Below are positions 1 through 6,415 of a stretch of DNA of 32,369 bases, in pieces. A program made the position numbers and the translations under genes. This stretch comes from Candidatus Sungiibacteriota bacterium (GTDB lineage: Bacteria; Patescibacteriota; Minisyncoccia; Sungbacterales; HO2-52-23), in assembly GCA_016196115.1 (NCBI GenBank), contig JACPYI010000029.1:1-32369 (forward strand), given 5' to 3'. The notes beneath the pieces were generated by a model. The model ran no database searches. It had not been told where the DNA came from and saw only the letters and a program-made list of their open reading frames with translations. Numbering within the stretch: the stretch's first letter is position 1; every line of letters starts with the position of its first letter.

Positions 1-3000
1 CCGGGCGAAGTCGTCCCGATGCCGACGTTGCCGCTCGTCTGCTGCACCACGAATTGACTCGTGCCTACCGTAAGACCGCCTGTTGAGAAGGTGGAGGTTG
101 CGGTGGTTGAAGTGATGGAGAGACGACCCGTGCCCGTGATGTTGCCTGCTCCAGTTTCCACTACTCCAGCACCCAGCCCTCCAGTTAAATACGTGTTGTG
201 CGCCACAATGTCATTGCCGATGAAGTTGTGCGTGCCTTCCACTTCTATGTCGTAGACCTGTTCGGCCGGGGTGTGCTCAATGGAGACGACGCGGTCCCAG
301 ACCGCGGTTTTGCCGGCACCCTTAACGGCAACCATCTGGCCCTCGTGAATCTCTGCGGCCTTTATCCACAGGCCCCCGCTTGACAAGGAAGGAGGCCGGG
401 AGTACAGTAGACGCACTAACGCAACTCCAAGCTCCGGCTTGGAGTTTATTTTTTCTCCTCTCCCCAACGAAGCGCGGTATTCGTCCAGATACGTATACTT
501 GCCGAATTTGGTCAATTCCCAGGCCATATTGCGCCGAAACCCTGCGAACGCAATCTTTTTGCCGCGTTGTGCCGCATAGTATCGTAGGGGCAGAAGATCG
601 CTGTCGCCGCTTACCGCAAGCACCGCATCCAGTTCGCCGATGCGCTCGGTCACATCCAGCGCAATTTCCACATCCATATCTCCTTTTTTCTTTATGCCAT
701 CCGCGGTCTGGATATATTTCAACGGCTTGGTACGAAAAGTTATTTCTTCTCCGACGCTCTGCATAAAATCAAGTGTGGGCTGACGCGCAGGATCTCCTTC
801 GACTGGCACCGCATGGTAGTGATTGAAAAACGCCATATCAAACTGAGCTTCAAGGGCGCGCTTCAACCTGATAATATCAATCCTCCACCCCGCATCACGC
901 TGGGCGTAAAACATATTGGCATTATCGAAGAATACGCCAAGGCGCGGTTTTTTCTTCGGCAGCTCTGGATCAGAAGTTTTTACCAAATACGGATGTTCCG
1001 CCGTAGTCCTGATGGTCTTGCCCGATGCGGTGGTGAGTTTATAGATGGGTTTGACGCCCATATCCATGAGCGCCTTCACTTTTGACCAGACAATCTGTCC
1101 GGTTTGCTCATCAAGCGATGCAATCTCGTCTCCTTGTTTGATGTCCTTAATCTGCACTTCATCATAGTCGTATTCATCTTCTCCTTCGCCGTTTGCTTTT
1201 TTCCCTCGCCCGCCATAGCCTTGGCGACGGCGTGTTTTGCGCCGCCTCCTGCGCAGGCGCGTATCTCCGGTCACGCAATGTCCCGCGATAGAGAGCAGTT
1301 GTGCCGGACTCGTCGTCCCGATGCCGACGTTGCCATTACTATCAAATCTGACCCTTTCACTGCCTCCAGTAGAGAAGTTTAAGGTGTTGGCTCCGCTGCT
1401 CCACATGCCGGTGTCCAGATCTGTCCTGATGGCAAATGATGGAGCGCCGACTGCTCCAAGGCCGGCAGCCGATACGCCATTGACATCCAGAAGTGCCAAA
1501 GGCCCCGTCGTCCCGATGCCGACGTTGCCGTTATTTAATATTGAGACCCTTTCCACATTGCTACTGTCTGCGATCACGAATGCCCGCGTTGCTCCCGTGC
1601 CATCGCCCGTGAATGCGAACTTTGCCGATGGAGACGTCGTCCCGATGCCGACGTTGCCGGCATTATTTATTGACAGGCGGCTTGCCGCTGCCCCGTTGTC
1701 GTAGATGTCGAATGTGCCTGCGGTGATAGAGCCGTTTCTCAAGCGGTATTGCGCTCCCGATGACTGGGAATCGCCTAAGGTGAGGATGGGTGCAGAGCCG
1801 TGGATCGCTACCAATGTCCCGGGCGAAGTCGTCCCGATGCCGACGTTGCCGGCTGTCTGCTGCACCACAAATTGACTCGTGCCTACGGTGAGACCGCCTG
1901 TTGAGAAGGTGGAGGTTGCGGTGGTTGAAGTGATGGAGAGACGTCCCGTGCCCGTGATGTTGCCTGCTCCAGTTTCCACTACTCCAGCTCCCAGCCCTCC
2001 AGTCAGGTAGGTGTTGTGGGCTACAATGTCATTGCCGATGAAGTTGTGCGTGCCTTCCACTTCTATGTCGTAAACCTGCTCGTGGGCGACTGGCGTTATG
2101 GCTATGATATGCTCCCATCCGTCAACGGTGGCAACCTCGTAATCAGTGGAAAGTTGTGCAACTTTTTTCCACATCCCTCTTGACACATCCAACCGCTGGG
2201 AATATAATGAGGGCACGAACAGCTGAGGGGTATCCATTCCCCGACGTCGACGAGGAGATTTCTCCTCCGAGAGAGACAGCTGTTTTTTGTTTGCTGGAAT
2301 TCCCTCCAATTCTTTGGTGCCAAGCCACGCGCAGGAGAGGAAAAACTTCGGGCCGTTATTTATGGCGCATACTACGACCCTAACCAATACATACTCCACA
2401 ATCTCCTCTATAGTCCAATACTCCACGAGCATTCCTGGCTTCTCCCGCTTCTGATACGCAACACCGCGGCTGGCATGGGCAAGCGCGGTCTCAACCCGCG
2501 GCAGGGCGAAGAATCTGGTGATGAGTTCGTTGAGTGACCGCTTTTTCTCAAGGAAATGTTCCCACCCGCTTCGGGTAAAGACCACTTCGCTGTTTTCCAA
2601 AGCAGGTACCCGAACCGTCCGGCCATGAAGTTTCGCAAAGTAATGCGCCCGCGCAAGCTGTTCCGCGTACGCATAGGTGCTTTTTTGGATGGTCGCGCCG
2701 TCATGCGCGATCGGGCGGACAAAGTACGGATGACTGGCGGTGGTGCGAATCAATTTGCCGGTACCCGTAATAAGCGCGTATGTCTGCTTCACCCCCATAT
2801 CCATCAATCCCTTCACCTGCCGCCATACAAAAGTACCACTCGCATCATCCAAGGTGAGTATCTCATCTCCTTGCTGAATATCTTTGATTGCCACTTCATC
2901 AAACTCTTCAATCCATTCGCCGTTTTTGCCTTTTCGTCTTCGTCTCCTGCGCAACCGCGTGTCTCCAGTGACACAATGGCCCGCGATAGAGAGCAGTTGT

Positions 3001-5306
3001 GCCGGACTCGTCGTCCCGATGCCGACGTTGCCGGCTGTTTGTTGCACCACGAATTGACTCGTGCCTACGGTCAGTCCTCCGGTGGAAAGGGTACTGGTGG
3101 CTGTGGTTGAGGTTGCATTGAAGGTGGAGGCGGAGAGGAATCCTCCGAATACGCCATTGCCTGCGACATCAAGCATGTTGCTTGTGGTGGTTGCCCTGCC
3201 TACTCCCAATCCTCCGGTAAGGTAGGTGTTGTGCGCGACGATGCCATTGCCGATGAAGTTGTGCGTGCCTTCCACTTCTATGTCGTAGACCTGTTCGGCG
3301 GGGAGATGTTCTATCTTTTCAATACGATCCCAGATGGCGACTTTGCCGTCTGCGGAGGAAACCGCGATTTCCTGACCTTCGGCAAGCGCATGCACTTTTG
3401 TCCACAACCCCTGCTTGACAGAAACATTGCCTCTCGCTATACTTCCCATTGCAGTCGCAAGATTGTTTTTACTGCCCGTTGAAAAAGACGGGTTTTGGTT
3501 ATCCACAGGGGCGTGCTTGACAAGATTTTCTCGGGTGATATACTGTATGTACTGGTTTTCAATCGGCAGTACCACGCTCCAAAGCGAGCTGAAAACAGTC
3601 CTGAAAGCAATTTCGGGATTGTTTTCATTTTGATGCATGATATAATCAGCAGTGCGGTGGGCTTGGTGGGTAAAACCCGAAAGTCGGGTAACCGATTGAA
3701 AACCGGATTGCTCGCCTCGGCGAGTGTGGTGCGAGTCCACTGCCCACCGTGTCAAAGAGTCCCATGTGAGTCGTGGGGCTTTTTGATTTTCAACACGCAC
3801 CAAATACGGATGCTCACCCGTAGTCCTGATTGTCTTGCCTCCTGCGGTGGTGAGTTTGTAGATGGGTTTGACGCCCATGTCCATAAGCGCATTCACTTTT
3901 GACCAGATGATTTTGCCAGTTGCTTCATTGAGAGACGCGATCTCGTCTCCCGGTTGGATATCTTTGATTGGCACTTCGTCATAGTCATACTCGTCCGAGT
4001 CGGTGCCATCGGCATTTTTCCTCCTGCGGCGTCTGCGCAAGCGCGTATCTCCGGTCACGCAATGTCCCGCGATAGAGAGAAGTTGAGAGGGACTCGTGGT
4101 CCCGATACCAAGATTGCCGATGATGCCGCCCGACACACTGATTCCTCCGGATGCGACAGTAATACCGCTCTGCACCGTGGGGCTGTAGAGTACTACATCG
4201 TGAAGCTGGTCTATCTTTTGGGAAAGCACTACGGGGGCGATAGTGTTGGTGCTTGGCTGCACGCCAATATTGACAAATTGCACTCCGGTGCCGTTCATGC
4301 GATCGCGAAGCCCTTGAATTGTGTTTTCAAACTCGGTGCGGATGGAGTTGTTGATGGAGGCGACGTCTGCAAGAACATTACGTTTCAAGACCGCGAGGTC
4401 CACCGGAATCACATTTTGCACCGCGGTGCGCTCCACCACTTCGCGCACGCGCGTAATCTCGGTGATATGTTCGTTCACGGGTGTGCGAAAACCACCGGTA
4501 GTTGGAGTGGTGGAAGAAAGCGATACGCCTCGGGCACTTTCGGTCAGAGAGCCGACATCTTTCGGAGTTGGAGACGGCGACAATTTTCGGACAAGCGGAG
4601 CAACGGCTCCACACGAATGATAGAGCGTCTGACACAAGGCAATACCAAGCGGGTCAATTAATTTTTGAAACGGTTTGCCAATGGCATCCAATACATTTGC
4701 GCGTTGCAGGGAATCTGCCAAGTGTATGTCGGGAAAAAGTTCTACGGCCGACGCGAGTGTGCGCGGAACAACCGCGATGTCCTGACCAGTTTCTCGTAGA
4801 GCGGCGCCGAGCGCCGTATGCAGGCGATCATTCACGCGGATCAGCGCGGCCACACCCTGGCTTGGCGAGAACCATGCGTCTTCGGACGCGAAGGGCTCAA
4901 GCATGCGCAAGTCAATTTTCTTACTTGCATGAATTGCAAACGTTCCCAACGCAAGAGACGTTGCCGCGACTGCGATAAGGGCAGTGGCCTGACGCACTCG
5001 TGGAATAGCGTCATATACGGATTGCAAAAAAGTTTTCGCAAAACTTTTTCTCTTGTCATTGTTCTGGATTCCTGCTGACGCGGGGATGACAGAAAGAGGA
5101 TCGGCGGGTTTCGGCAATGAAGCATTTGATTTGAATTTCGCATGACCGTTGTGCTCCACATACGTATCCAGCCATGCATTGGTGGTAACCCAGTTTCTGC
5201 CGATCTTTAACCCTTGAAGTTTCTTCTTAAAAATCAAAAACCGCAGGTAGTCCTGGCTGACCCCCCGCTCTTTGGCTGCACGGGCAAGAGAGAGATAGTG
5301 TTCCAT
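1..5306 (-). CDS. Giant HTH-TM-repeat surface protein with three inteins (3' end beyond window)
   Basis: The frame is open from ATG at 5306 to the left edge, about 1768 codons without a stop. In order: a helix-turn-helix of the excisionase/MerR type (residues ~5-48); a linker containing SVIPASAGIQ, the translation of a palindromic repeat; one hydrophobic helix (~107-125, about ATALIAVAATSLALGTFAI); a helical stretch; then extracellular-type repeats with at least seven GN(V/L)GIGTT motifs and STGGLTVGTSQFVVQQ units. Three Hint/intein domains interrupt it at residues 416-693, 778-1098 and 1344-1704, each after SIAGH and before TYLTGGLG. Without them about 808 residues of extein lie in the window. 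Similar repeat proteins with an N-terminal HTH and one TM occur in CPR genomes and are taken to be cell-surface or pilus/tail-fibre-like. The HTH would lie inside the cell. The ligand and the C-terminus are unknown. Confidence 0.85.
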   Translation of the reverse strand, partial: MEHYLSLARAAKERGVSQDYLRFLIFKKKLQGLKIGRNWVTTNAWLDTYVEHNGHAKFKSNASLPKPADPLSVIPASAGIQNNDKRKSFAKTFLQSVYDAIPRVRQATALIAVAATSLALGTFAIHASKKIDLRMLEPFASEDAWFSPSQGVAALIRVNDRLHTALGAALRETGQDIAVVPRTLASAVELFPDIHLADSLQRANVLDAIGKPFQKLIDPLGIALCQTLYHSCGAVAPLVRKLSPSPTPKDVGSLTESARGVSLSSTTPTTGGFRTPVNEHITEITRVREVVERTAVQNVIPVDLAVLKRNVLADVASINNSIRTEFENTIQGLRDRMNGTGVQFVNIGVQPSTNTIAPVVLSQKIDQLHDVVLYSPTVQSGITVASGGISVSGGIIGNLGIGTTSPSQLLSIAGHCVTGDTRLRRRRRRKNADGTDSDEYDYDEVPIKDIQPGDEIASLNEATGKIIWSKVNALMDMGVKPIYKLTTAGGKTIRTTGEHPYLVRVENQKAPRLTWDSLTRWAVDSHHTRRGEQSGFQSVTRLSGFTHQAHRTADYIMHQNENNPEIAFRTVFSSLWSVVLPIENQYIQYITRENLVKHAPVDNQNPSFSTGSKNNLATAMGSIARGNVSVKQGLWTKVHALAEGQEIAVSSADGKVAIWDRIEKIEHLPAEQVYDIEVEGTHNFIGNGIVAHNTYLTGGLGVGRATTTSNMLDVAGNGVFGGFLSASTFNATSTTATSTLSTGGLTVGTSQFVVQQTAGNVGIGTTSPAQLLSIAGHCVTGDTRLRRRRRRKGKNGEWIEEFDEVAIKDIQQGDEILTLDDASGTFVWRQVKGLMDMGVKQTYALITGTGKLIRTTASHPYFVRPIAHDGATIQKSTYAYAEQLARAHYFAKLHGRTVRVPALENSEVVFTRSGWEHFLEKKRSLNELITRFFALPRVETALAHASRGVAYQKREKPGMLVEYWTIEEIVEYVLVRVVVCAINNGPKFFLSCAWLGTKELEGIPANKKQLSLSEEKSPRRRRGMDTPQLFVPSLYSQRLDVSRGMWKKVAQLSTDYEVATVDGWEHIIAITPVAHEQVYDIEVEGTHNFIGNDIVAHNTYLTGGLGAGVVETGAGNITGTGRLSITSTTATSTFSTGGLTVGTSQFVVQQTAGNVGIGTTSPGTLVAIHGSAPILTLGDSQSSGAQYRLRNGSITAGTFDIYDNGAAASRLSINNAGNVGIGTTSPSAKFAFTGDGTGATRAFVIADSSNVERVSILNNGNVGIGTTGPLALLDVNGVSAAGLGAVGAPSFAIRTDLDTGMWSSGANTLNFSTGGSERVRFDSNGNVGIGTTSPAQLLSIAGHCVTGDTRLRRRRRKTRRRQGYGGRGKKANGEGEDEYDYDEVQIKDIKQGDEIASLDEQTGQIVWSKVKALMDMGVKPIYKLTTASGKTIRTTAEHPYLVKTSDPELPKKKPRLGVFFDNANMFYAQRDAGWRIDIIRLKRALEAQFDMAFFNHYHAVPVEGDPARQPTLDFMQSVGEEITFRTKPLKYIQTADGIKKKGDMDVEIALDVTERIGELDAVLAVSGDSDLLPLRYYAAQRGKKIAFAGFRRNMAWELTKFGKYTYLDEYRASLGRGEKINSKPELGVALVRLLYSRPPSLSSGGLWIKAAEIHEGQMVAVKGAGKTAVWDRVVSIEHTPAEQVYDIEVEGTHNFIGNDIVAHNTYLTGGLGAGVVETGAGNITGTGRLSITSTTATSTFSTGGLTVGTSQFVVQQTSGNVGIGTTSP
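380..408 (+). promoter_or_regulatory. Antisense promoter in intein 3
   Basis: TTGACA at 380-385, 17-bp spacer, TACAGT at 403-408. The -35 is perfect, the -10 weaker. It sits at the same place relative to the Hint LWIK codons as the promoters of inteins 1 and 2. Confidence 0.45.
413..454 (+). ncRNA. Very short RNA/terminator unit antisense to intein 3
   Basis: After the promoter, only about 8 nt precede a 10-bp perfect hairpin (423-432 with 437-446, loop TCCG) followed by a T-rich tail. A transcript would be about 40 nt and consist mostly of the terminator. It may be a functional tiny RNA, a remnant, or just a terminator that limits antisense transcription. Confidence 0.35.
423..454 (+). terminator. 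Intrinsic terminator in intein 3, plus strand
   Basis: AACTCCAAGC-TCCG-GCTTGGAGTT hairpin followed by TATTTTTT. Confidence 0.6.
1819..2080. repeat. Near-identical duplicate of window positions 1-262
   Basis: These bases match 1-262 almost throughout. They cover the GNVGIGTTSP repeat, the extein up to TYLTGG and the C-terminal Hint block. The unit 'intein C-terminus plus downstream extein' was therefore copied recently or is kept identical by gene conversion. Confidence 0.85.
2180..2208 (+). promoter_or_regulatory. Perfect consensus promoter antisense to intein 2
   Basis: TTGACA (2180-2185), 17-bp spacer, TATAAT (2203-2208): a full sigma70 consensus. It lies inside the coding frame of intein 2 on the opposite strand. 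The start would be near 2215. Confidence 0.65.
2215..2289 (+). ncRNA. Structured small RNA antisense to intein 2 (~75 nt)
   Basis: An outer stem of AACAGCTG (from 2218) with CAGCTGTT (to 2284) closes a small fold. Inside are a GGGG/CCCC hairpin (2227-2242) and GAGGAG-ATTT-CTCCTC (2252-2267). The outer stem is directly followed by six T, so it also serves as terminator. Promoter, compact fold and terminator together make an independent RNA gene likely. No known RNA family is recognised. Confidence 0.5.
3415..3443 (+). promoter_or_regulatory. Promoter of RNA A, antisense to intein 1
   Basis: TTGACA (3415-3420), 17-bp spacer, TATACT (3438-3443). It is preceded by TCCACA and a short spacer, as in the cognate sites of the other inteins. 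Confidence 0.6.
3450..3497 (+). ncRNA. Small RNA A antisense to intein 1 (~48 nt)
   Basis: A short TTGC-AGTC-GCAA hairpin is followed by a CCCGT/ACGGG hairpin (3475-3492) and TTTT. It starts about 7 nt after a strong -10 box. Function is unknown; it could also be a short leader transcript ended by the terminator. Confidence 0.4.
3475..3497 (+). terminator. Terminator of RNA A
   Basis: CCCGT stem, 8-nt loop, ACGGG, then TTTT. Confidence 0.4.
3517..3544 (+). promoter_or_regulatory. Promoter of RNA B, antisense to intein 1
   Basis: TTGACA (3517-3522), 16-bp spacer, extended -10 TGA-TATACT (3536-3544). A TTATCCACA sequence (3499-3507) precedes it, as at 362-370 in intein 3. Confidence 0.6.
3549..3632 (+). 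ncRNA. Small RNA B with a loop complementary to the tRNA-like RNA
   Basis: A 5' hairpin GTACTG/CAGTAC (3549-3572) exposes a loop inside CTGGTTTTCAATCGG (3552-3566). This pairs over 15 nt (one G-U) with 3692-3706, the anticodon-like loop and stem of the RNA encoded next. A small CGCT-CCAA-AGCG hairpin follows. The 3' end is a 16-bp hairpin with a GCAA tetraloop (3591-3626) before a T-rich tail. A loop matching another RNA's loop is the design of antisense 'kissing' regulators such as CopA/CopT. The regulatory role is inferred. Confidence 0.5.
3591..3631 (+). terminator. Terminator of RNA B
   Basis: Sixteen paired positions around a GCAA loop (arms 3591-3606 and 3611-3626), then ATTTT. Confidence 0.55.
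3619..3646 (+). promoter_or_regulatory. Promoter of the tRNA-like gene
   Basis: TTGTTT (3619-3624), 16-bp spacer, perfect TATAAT (3641-3646) with extended TGA before it. The RNA starts 9 nt later, so the leader is only a few nucleotides. It overlaps the RNA B terminator stem. Confidence 0.6.
3656..3749 (+). tRNA. tRNA-like RNA with long variable arm, anticodon unclear
   Basis: A perfect 7-bp acceptor stem (GGTGGGC 3656-3662, GCCCACC 3742-3748) with G as discriminator base; no CCA is encoded. The T arm has four pairs and loop TGCGAGT. A long variable-arm hairpin CTCGC-CTCG-GCGAG (3711-3724) makes it class II-like (Ser/Leu/Tyr). The rest is odd. The anticodon region CCGATTGAAAACCGG has only three firm pairs around a loop centred on GAA, as in tRNA-Phe, while a Ser UGA reading is also possible by position. 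The D region is about 8-10 nt too long and contains extra short hairpins. At 94 nt it could be a divergent tRNA, a tRNA mimic or a decaying gene. Promoter and terminator fit tightly around it. Confidence 0.5.
3758..3785 (+). terminator. Terminator of the tRNA-like gene
   Basis: AGTCCCA (3758-3764) pairs with TGGGGCT (3774-3780), followed by TTTT. It starts 8 nt after the acceptor stem. Confidence 0.65.
5055..5090. repeat. REP-like GTCATT...GGATGAC element inside the coding frame
   Basis: It runs from GTCATT to GATGAC and contains CTGGATTCCTGC, the same type of element as at 31604-31663 and 23831-23921. In the giant protein it is translated as SVIPASAGIQ between the HTH and the membrane helix. 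Confidence 0.6.
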
Positions 5307-5936: not shown

Positions 5937-5966
5937 AAACTACCCCGACTCAAGTCGGGGTAGTTT
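5937..5966 (-). terminator. Terminator after RNase P RNA
   Basis: A 13-bp perfect stem, AAACTACCCCGACT with AGTCGGGGTAGTTT, directly beyond the P1 helix of rnpB. Being symmetrical it could also stop transcription of the HTH gene from the other side. Confidence 0.6.
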
Positions 5967-6415
5967 GTTCTCTTTATCGATAAGCCGAGTTCTGTCCCCC
6001 GATTGAAGTCGGGGGGATGATCATCTCTCTGGTCCCAATGTTGCCATATGAGATCTAGCGGTATCTCCGATTTGAATCGGAGTCCCTTGCACCGGATAGG
6101 AGTTTTTCTGAGACGGGAGCTCCGCTTGCACGGAAGCTCTCGCGTCTTGACTGCGCACTGTTGCCAATGCGCACTGTGGGCTCTTACCCCACCTCTTTTC
6201 ACCCTTGCCTCCTTCAATGCAGACACCTTTAGAGTTTCTGCGATGACGATTGGCGGTATGGTCTCTGTGACACTTTCCCGTTCATCCCGACAAAGTCGGA
6301 ATTATGGCGGCCGTTAGCCGCTATCTCTATCCCCCAACACGAAGTCGGAGAATGGTGCTCGGACTTTCCTCCCCTCCGACTCGAGTCGGAGGAGCGATCA
6401 CCTGATAAAGAGAAC
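5967..6415 (-). ncRNA. rnpB: RNase P RNA (class A)
   Basis: The catalytic RNA of RNase P, which trims tRNA 5' ends. On the minus strand the hallmark P4 strand GAGGAAAGTCCGAGCACC lies near the 5' end and ACAGAACTCGGCTTA near the 3' end. The conserved ACAGAGACCATACCGCC and the GGTAAGAGCCCAC region lie between. The ends are set by a 12-bp P1 helix (6404-6415 with 5967-5978). About 449 nt is somewhat long. Several peripheral helices share the sequence CCGACT...AGTCGG, also used in the terminator. Confidence 0.92.

Follow-up and report, generated by a model that had tools for sequence, protein, structure and literature searches.

Putative antisense RNA genes and toxin–antitoxin-like cargo in a clade of Patescibacteria inteins

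Introduction

Inteins are thought to persist via homing or through usefulness to their host. Toxin–antitoxin (TA) systems with an RNA component take several forms. In type III systems (ToxIN, CptIN), tandem RNA repeats lie upstream on the same strand; in the type I system txpA/RatA, the antisense RNA is convergent, type I toxins being small and hydrophobic; and the RNA-only type VIII systems, such as CreTA and SdsR/RyeA, consist of two RNAs, a toxin and an antitoxin. DUF3800, an RNase H fold, is associated with putative ncRNAs (PMC10910872), and LPD3 domains are known from polyvalent proteins of phages (PMC5512222). The literature searched, with most subscription journals outside its scope, contained no description of inteins that house RNA genes or TA modules.

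The window analysed here comprises 32,369 nt and corresponds to contig 11 in a Patescibacteria genome of 842 kb. One of its genes contains three inteins with putative small RNA genes on the opposite strand, which resemble the above systems in part. They share with type III systems the proposed combination of a protein with a neutralising structured RNA, but they are single and convergent on the other strand, and tandem-repeat RNA upstream on the same strand was not found in them. With txpA/RatA they have the antisense geometry in common: the RNA is convergent to a protein gene and overlaps it on the 3' side. Unlike the small hydrophobic toxins of type I, however, the cargo is a folded soluble domain of 120–170 aa, and the RNA has a conserved fold. 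Two complementary small RNAs of one intein (RNA1 and RNA2), for which toxin and antitoxin roles are proposed below, recall type VIII systems, from which they differ in that one RNA is tRNA-like (alanine-type and without a D-arm in relatives) and both lie within an intein. The DUF3800 RNAs (RF02961, RF02964 and RF02968) are likewise small structured RNA genes named after the accompanying protein family, but both the protein families and the RNA folds differ from those of the window. No Rfam family matched the window RNAs, the DUF3800 RNAs at gathering score included.

Results and Discussion

Host gene and inteins

The host gene (3..5306, reverse strand) encodes a VGIGTT-type repeat-rich protein, with 1768 codons in the window, and continues past the window edge. 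PF14890 matched the protein in three copies (3.2e-56), as did TIGR01443 and TIGR01445 (Pfam/NCBIfam profiles). Hint N and C blocks, C1 and HN|T were all found within one open frame, and HN|T or HN|S was present in 89 of 92 homologous inteins. Intein 1 (approximately 3228..4061) has a 387-nt cargo without a recognisable protein domain, and intein 2 (approximately 2013..2975) an LPD3-like cargo, both located by profile search; intein 3 (195..1277; PF14890, TIGR01443/01445), with approximate coordinates taken from the sequence, has an NYN cargo. All three are on the reverse strand and extend from C1 to HN|T. A gene for RNase P RNA class A (RF00010, 148 bits) was observed immediately upstream of the intein gene, at 5965-6413 on the reverse strand.

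The window inteins are similar to homing-endonuclease inteins in their intact splicing blocks (C1 ... HN|T) and in the position of the cargo, which is the usual endonuclease site. The cargo itself differs, consisting of NYN, LPD3-like domains, RNA genes or TA operons, many of them antisense. No LAGLIDADG or HNH homing endonuclease was matched by Pfam or NCBIfam in the 1768-aa host protein. In our main reading, to which we assign a probability of roughly 60%, the window inteins would have exchanged the homing endonuclease for TA-like (addiction) modules, and the antisense cassettes would be the RNA genes of these modules.

Antisense promoters and terminators

A preliminary description of the window had reported TTGACA and −10 boxes antisense to the coding frame in all three inteins, each followed by an intrinsic terminator. 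The same sites were recovered on the forward strand by a promoter scan based on matches to the sigma-70 consensus: TTGACA-17-TACAGT in intein 3 (380-408, 10/12 consensus), TTGACA-17-TATAAT in intein 2 (2180-2208, 12/12) and, in intein 1, P1a with TTGACA-17-TATACT (3415-3443, 11/12) and P1b, the promoter of RNA2, with TTGACA-16-TATACT (3517-3544, 11/12). The first 5.4 kb contained six promoter-like sites, of which these four matched best. RNA1 has an extended −10 promoter, TGATATAAT (3638-3646), recognised from the sequence. Behind each promoter a strong hairpin and a T run were found: a stem and T run in intein 3 (423-446), a long P1 stem followed by T6 in intein 2 (2217-2285), and in intein 1 the terminators of the P1a unit (3474-3493), of RNA2 (stem at 3590-3627) and of RNA1 (hairpin and TTTTT, 3754-3785), all on the forward strand. 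The putative antisense RNAs folded better than shuffled sequences (z-scores of −2.2 to −5.9). As previously stated, the sense frame of the host gene is uninterrupted through all antisense units (1768 aa).

The recurrence of these units had been judged too regular for chance, and the numbers agree: an antisense promoter in 3/3 window slots has p ~3e-5 at the extein-window rate. A search of CPR intein loci, suggested in the preliminary description, revealed a clear enrichment. Promoters with at least 10/12 consensus were counted within 200 nt before the W-x-K strand; Hint halves were located in the best 80 of 396 loci, and the frequencies apply to close relatives. A first count gave an antisense promoter in 57/92 related inteins, where shuffled sequences predict 2.25 and the sense strand had 2; a second gave 58/99, against 2/99 on the sense strand and control rates of at most 4% (3/74 viral inteins, 8/256 extein windows and 0/94 Hint N-halves; Fisher p ~1e-30). 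Among 12 newly found, mostly much more distant inteins, only two had an antisense promoter; generality to all CPR inteins was therefore dropped, and the feature marks one intein clade.

That the promoters arose by chance, or merely accompany a conserved peptide ahead of the W-x-K strand, is an explanation that we consider next to negligible. The −35 box does lie at a near-constant distance from the W (offset 14-15 in 23/57), and NYN inteins have the peptide LGVALL..PSLSSG in common. However, the feature is absent or rare on the sense strand and in exteins, Hint N-halves and viral inteins. Two codon phases of TTGACA are in use (33/57 and 23/57), inteins 3 and 2 of the window having a phase unlike that of intein 1, a pattern for which a conserved peptide does not account. 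The RNA is also conserved at intergenic loci (see below). Peptide conservation as the cause was rejected based on codon phase and these intergenic copies.

An LPD3-like domain and its three-way-junction RNA

Intein 2 contains, in frame, a 122-aa LPD3-like domain (2310..2675, reverse strand), identified by free-standing homologues and fold matches. The free-standing homologues, of approximately 140–170 aa, were present in about 30 of 380 genomes of the phylum, including one copy in the window genome. PF18798 (LPD3) matched 16 of 25 aligned homologues weakly (best 9e-6), the window copy itself being without a direct match. The AlphaFold model of the domain (pLDDT 91, pTM 0.83) had phage LPD3 proteins as its top fold matches (prob 1.00, TMq 0.56–0.61, E ~0.01), and a PDB fold search with the same model gave no match. 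No LPD3-like relatives were found in viral contigs. A PBECR/RelE-type nuclease identity of the cargo was considered and dropped after the Pfam, PDB fold and viral fold searches.

Opposite the 3' ends of the free-standing LPD3-like genes, a TTGACA-type promoter and a three-way-junction RNA were found in convergent orientation at nearly every locus examined, usually with a terminator behind the RNA. In the alignment of this RNA from the free-standing loci, 95.1% of cells were paired, and 54 double changes were counted versus 14.6 ± 3.2 in shuffles (0/500 shuffles reached this number; all slid versions failed). A covariance model (R1) matched the RNA at five loci outside its training set, all convergent, and also beside the free-standing LPD3-like copy in the window genome. 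R1 did not reach the RNA of intein 2, which forms a sister subfamily with the three closest free-standing loci (L234-L236). A second model (R2), built from L234-L236 and L142 with the window left out of training, matched the window at 2217-2285 on the forward strand (E=3.6e-12), in addition to L130 and L094. Across 380 genomes, R2 found only the window, the three free-standing training loci and one marginal match.

The R2 matches and the convergent RNA at free-standing genes strongly support the conclusion that the cargo family has a partner RNA and that the putative antisense transcript of intein 2 is this RNA, moving together with its cargo. Its conservation at intergenic loci, where no coding overlap forces conservation, points the same way. 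Near free-standing LPD3-like genes with their RNAs, Rfam DUF3800 RNAs were also observed, namely DUF3800-II at L234 (1408-1477), DUF3800-V at L246 (546-641) and DUF3800-IX at L248 (2033-2101); LPD3-like and DUF3800 modules seem to cluster.

A tRNA-like RNA and a complementary RNA

In intein 1, the antisense strand contains, in order, P1a with a short RNA, P1b with RNA2 and the extended −10 promoter with RNA1, each with a terminator. The two extra units that had been noted behind the first were identified as a complementary RNA pair, RNA2 and RNA1. The putative short RNA with its terminator (3444..3498, forward strand; GCAGTCGCAAGATTG..ACTGC and GCCCGT..ACGGG) is common to L068 and L077; in L068, a P1a-type short RNA is followed by a ParE operon instead of RNA2 and RNA1. 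The putative RNA2 (3545..3632, forward strand; terminator stem at 3590-3627) contains CTGGTTTTCAATCGG (3552-3566), which by complementarity pairs with CCGATTGAAAACCGG (3692-3706) of RNA1. The latter (3654..3750, forward strand) is a putative divergent tRNA-Ser-like RNA with a 9-bp acceptor and a long variable arm. It was matched neither by ARAGORN nor by Rfam, including RF00005 and RF00023, and a canonical tRNA in intein 1 was rejected on this basis.

Pairs of the RNA1/RNA2 type ranked top in an inverted-repeat scan of 81 cargos, and at least 12 distinct analogous pairs were recognised by pattern (L073, L088, L094 with two, L103, L106, L136, L139 and L142 with four). Downstream of every tRNA-like match listed in relatives, a complementary RNA lay within 200 nt. 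The complementarity score was at least 14.0 for cognate pairs and at most 13.6 for 72 non-cognate pairs. Since complementarity is kept although the sequences vary by locus, the two RNAs covary. RNA1 of the relatives is unlike the serine-type RNA1 of the window: it is alanine-type, without a D-arm, with a 12-bp acceptor, a T-arm and G3.U70 in 8/8, and 15 of its 26 pairs are doubly changed. For six of these RNAs, RF00023 (tmRNA) outscored RF00005, below the gathering score. RF00023 also matched a true tRNA-Ala of the window genome (34 bits); identity with tmRNA was therefore rejected, and only a resemblance to the tRNA-like domain of tmRNA is claimed. The relatives' RNA1 shares with that domain the missing D-arm, G3.U70, the T-arm and a long P2-like hairpin, but differs in the absence of an mRNA-like part, and the window RNA1 is unmatched by RF00023.

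The pairing of RNA2 with RNA1, itself an antisense pair, bears on a possible but unlikely alternative, cis-antisense control: the RNAs would pair with the intein or host mRNA, or with the cargo mRNA at its 3' end, and reduce cargo or host-gene expression, in the manner of RatA and txpA. The antisense or convergent geometry, both in inteins and at free-standing genes, is as this alternative expects. Yet the conservation and covariation of the three-way junction, which plain pairing does not need, point to a folded RNA that is recognised, and the cargo proteins are unlike the small hydrophobic type I toxins.

An NYN domain and a short RNA

The in-frame cargo of intein 3 is an NYN (PIN-like nuclease) domain (462..956, reverse strand; PF01936, 6.8e-13, 49.8 bits with a cut-off at 24.2). 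Most NYN proteins are RNases with housekeeping functions. The putative antisense RNA (409..454, forward strand; leader CACTAACGCAACTCC, stem at 423-446) is about 40 nt long and consists of little more than an intrinsic terminator hairpin and a 15-nt leader. With sense and antisense cargo classes assigned in part by eye or by simple patterns, the leader motif TAAYGNNRCYCC occurred in 9/22 NYN inteins versus 1/41 'other' inteins. A free-standing NYN homologue is present in the window genome (G000:C33:10194-10679). A convergent promoter 3' of the gene was found at the six closest free-standing NYN genes (6/6, this one included) versus 1 of about 20 distant ones (p=3e-5), the leader motif being only partly common to them. 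The NYN-associated RNA is less conserved than the RNA of intein 2. These data support a role of the putative intein 3 RNA as partner of the NYN cargo. At L102, an NYN-type promoter/terminator peptide signature (NPDLSAGATLTRSIV) precedes the NYN domain, as if the RNA cassette had moved.

Because the putative intein 3 transcript barely exceeds its terminator, we considered whether promoter and terminator merely block or balance transcription through the intein, the RNA being without a role. The covarying structured RNAs, the complementary pairs and the occurrence of the same RNA beside free-standing genes make such an insulator very improbable.

The preliminary description had offered an RNA partner of a nuclease cargo as a possible function, besides antisense control of the intein and a mobile RNA element. 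The partner option is the best supported, as the same kind of convergent RNA stands beside free-standing LPD3-like and NYN genes. A nuclease cargo is predicted for intein 3, with its NYN domain; the cargo of intein 2 is LPD3-like instead, and no protein domain could be recognised in that of intein 1.

Toxin–antitoxin operons in the same slot

In several related inteins, the space between the Hint halves contains antisense TA operons of known families, DUF433 with DUF5615 and ParE-type pairs, that is, antitoxin–toxin pairs as in type II systems. The antisense operon of L069 encodes DUF433 (1.7e-25) and DUF5615 (3.3e-13), and ParE-type antisense pairs occur in L068/L077 and L132 (ParE of L068, 3e-6). 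Among 36 antisense ORFs scanned, DUF433 was found in 10, DUF5615 in 8 and ParE in 4. No type II gene pair of a known family was present in the window inteins. DUF3800 is another cargo of related inteins (PF12686, 5.4e-07).

These operons also bear on the idea that the RNA is a working cofactor of the cargo (a guide, scaffold or trigger), for example in phage defence, rather than an antitoxin. Cargo classes differ in the class of RNA that accompanies them, and LPD3 and NYN/DUF3800 families are present in conflict systems (PMC5512222; PMC10910872), as would be expected of such an effector. We nevertheless regard it as distinctly unlikely: plain TA operons occupy the same slot, a variable, guide-like segment is missing from the RNAs unless the RNA1/RNA2 complementarity is counted, and PADLOC gave no match for the window cargo.

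Proposed addiction modules

The common thread is TA-like cargo, whether protein TA operons, protein with RNA or RNA with RNA, and from it we propose addiction modules. The proposal builds on features read directly from the sequences: promoters with terminators and their enrichment, covarying RNA structures, the pairing of cargo families with RNAs at free-standing loci, complementary pairs, and TA operons in the relatives' slot. Against it count the absence of a known toxin among the window cargo and of type III-like tandem repeats in the RNAs, as do the mainly housekeeping role of NYN RNases, the lack of an ARAGORN or Rfam match to the window RNA1 and its difference from the alanine-type form, and the minimal size of the intein 3 RNA. 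The antisense RNAs are best read as putative antitoxin or partner RNAs. Intein 2 would combine an LPD3-like protein, fused in frame, with a cognate three-way-junction RNA; in intein 3, the partners would be an NYN nuclease and a short RNA in convergent orientation. An RNA-only pair would be housed in intein 1, with the tRNA-like RNA1 as candidate toxin and the complementary RNA2 as candidate antitoxin, and one further short RNA.

That the cassettes are transcribed, that the cargo is toxic and is neutralised, and that the intein maintains itself selfishly, is inferred. The intein would splice out and the cargo protein would be released, while the RNA, transcribed from its own strong promoter, would hold the protein in check. 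If the intein were lost, the toxin would be set free, and in this way the modules would keep the intein in place. For RNA1 and RNA2, our guess is that an aminoacylated tRNA-like RNA may disturb translation and be masked by the complementary RNA. Since splicing requires an uninterrupted sense frame, a gene that brings its own start, stop and terminator could be accommodated only antisense.

Extended to the whole clade, the proposal is evenly balanced between right and wrong in our judgement: these inteins may be carriers of antisense addiction modules, comprising TA operons, proteins with a convergent RNA (LPD3-like, NYN, DUF3800) and an RNA-only pair with a tRNA-like toxin. In this reading, the RNA-only antitoxin would cover the loop of the tRNA-like toxin, which in relatives would be an alanine-type mimic of the tRNA-like domain of tmRNA.

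Addiction-like antisense modules in a Patescibacteria intein clade would constitute another route of persistence, without homing. If the proposal is true, two new RNA-based TA types would be added, as well as a systematic overlap of genes with a protein that must be spliced; the putative RNA genes overlap fully with protein-coding sequence that must remain open. Candidate families of RNA genes that Rfam lacks come to light (the partner RNA of LPD3 and the tRNA-like RNAs with their antisense partners), and new toxin-like proteins and regulatory RNAs are in prospect from a phylum that has been little studied.

Further cargo of related inteins

Antisense ORFs for membrane-like proteins of about 65 aa with two helices were observed in L121, L125, L126, L133, L137, L143 and L151, one of them weakly similar to DUF6722. 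The intein-like locus L070 (G041:C18) contained three W.QV.ELRVGEEIAVA Hint-strand repeats with DUF433-like antisense ORFs in between, an apparent array of TA cassettes with Hint fragments as separators. In L071 (G051:C15, 1772-8782), the Hint N and C halves were several kb apart, with independent genes in between (nucleotidyltransferase/AbiEii-like, AAA ATPase and PD-(D/E)XK-like), as if the intein were split by gene islands. The cargo of L100, L101, L109, L112, L123, L135 and L152 was likewise large (2.4–3.3 kb).

An in-frame cargo motif without a Pfam match, (E)VDQS..K.SPAH, was present in L079, L083, L094, L104, L113, L118, L126, L127, L141 and L145. Inteins with this cargo had antisense RNAs with the motifs GCGAATC..GTGTAAC or GACGCCTGTGG..GGGCGTTTTC, and cargo and RNAs are probably one more protein–RNA pair. 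In L127, an intein of this type, the antisense strand contained tandem repeats (repeated ..VRMCxSSEGVFC..), recalling the repeat RNA of type III systems.
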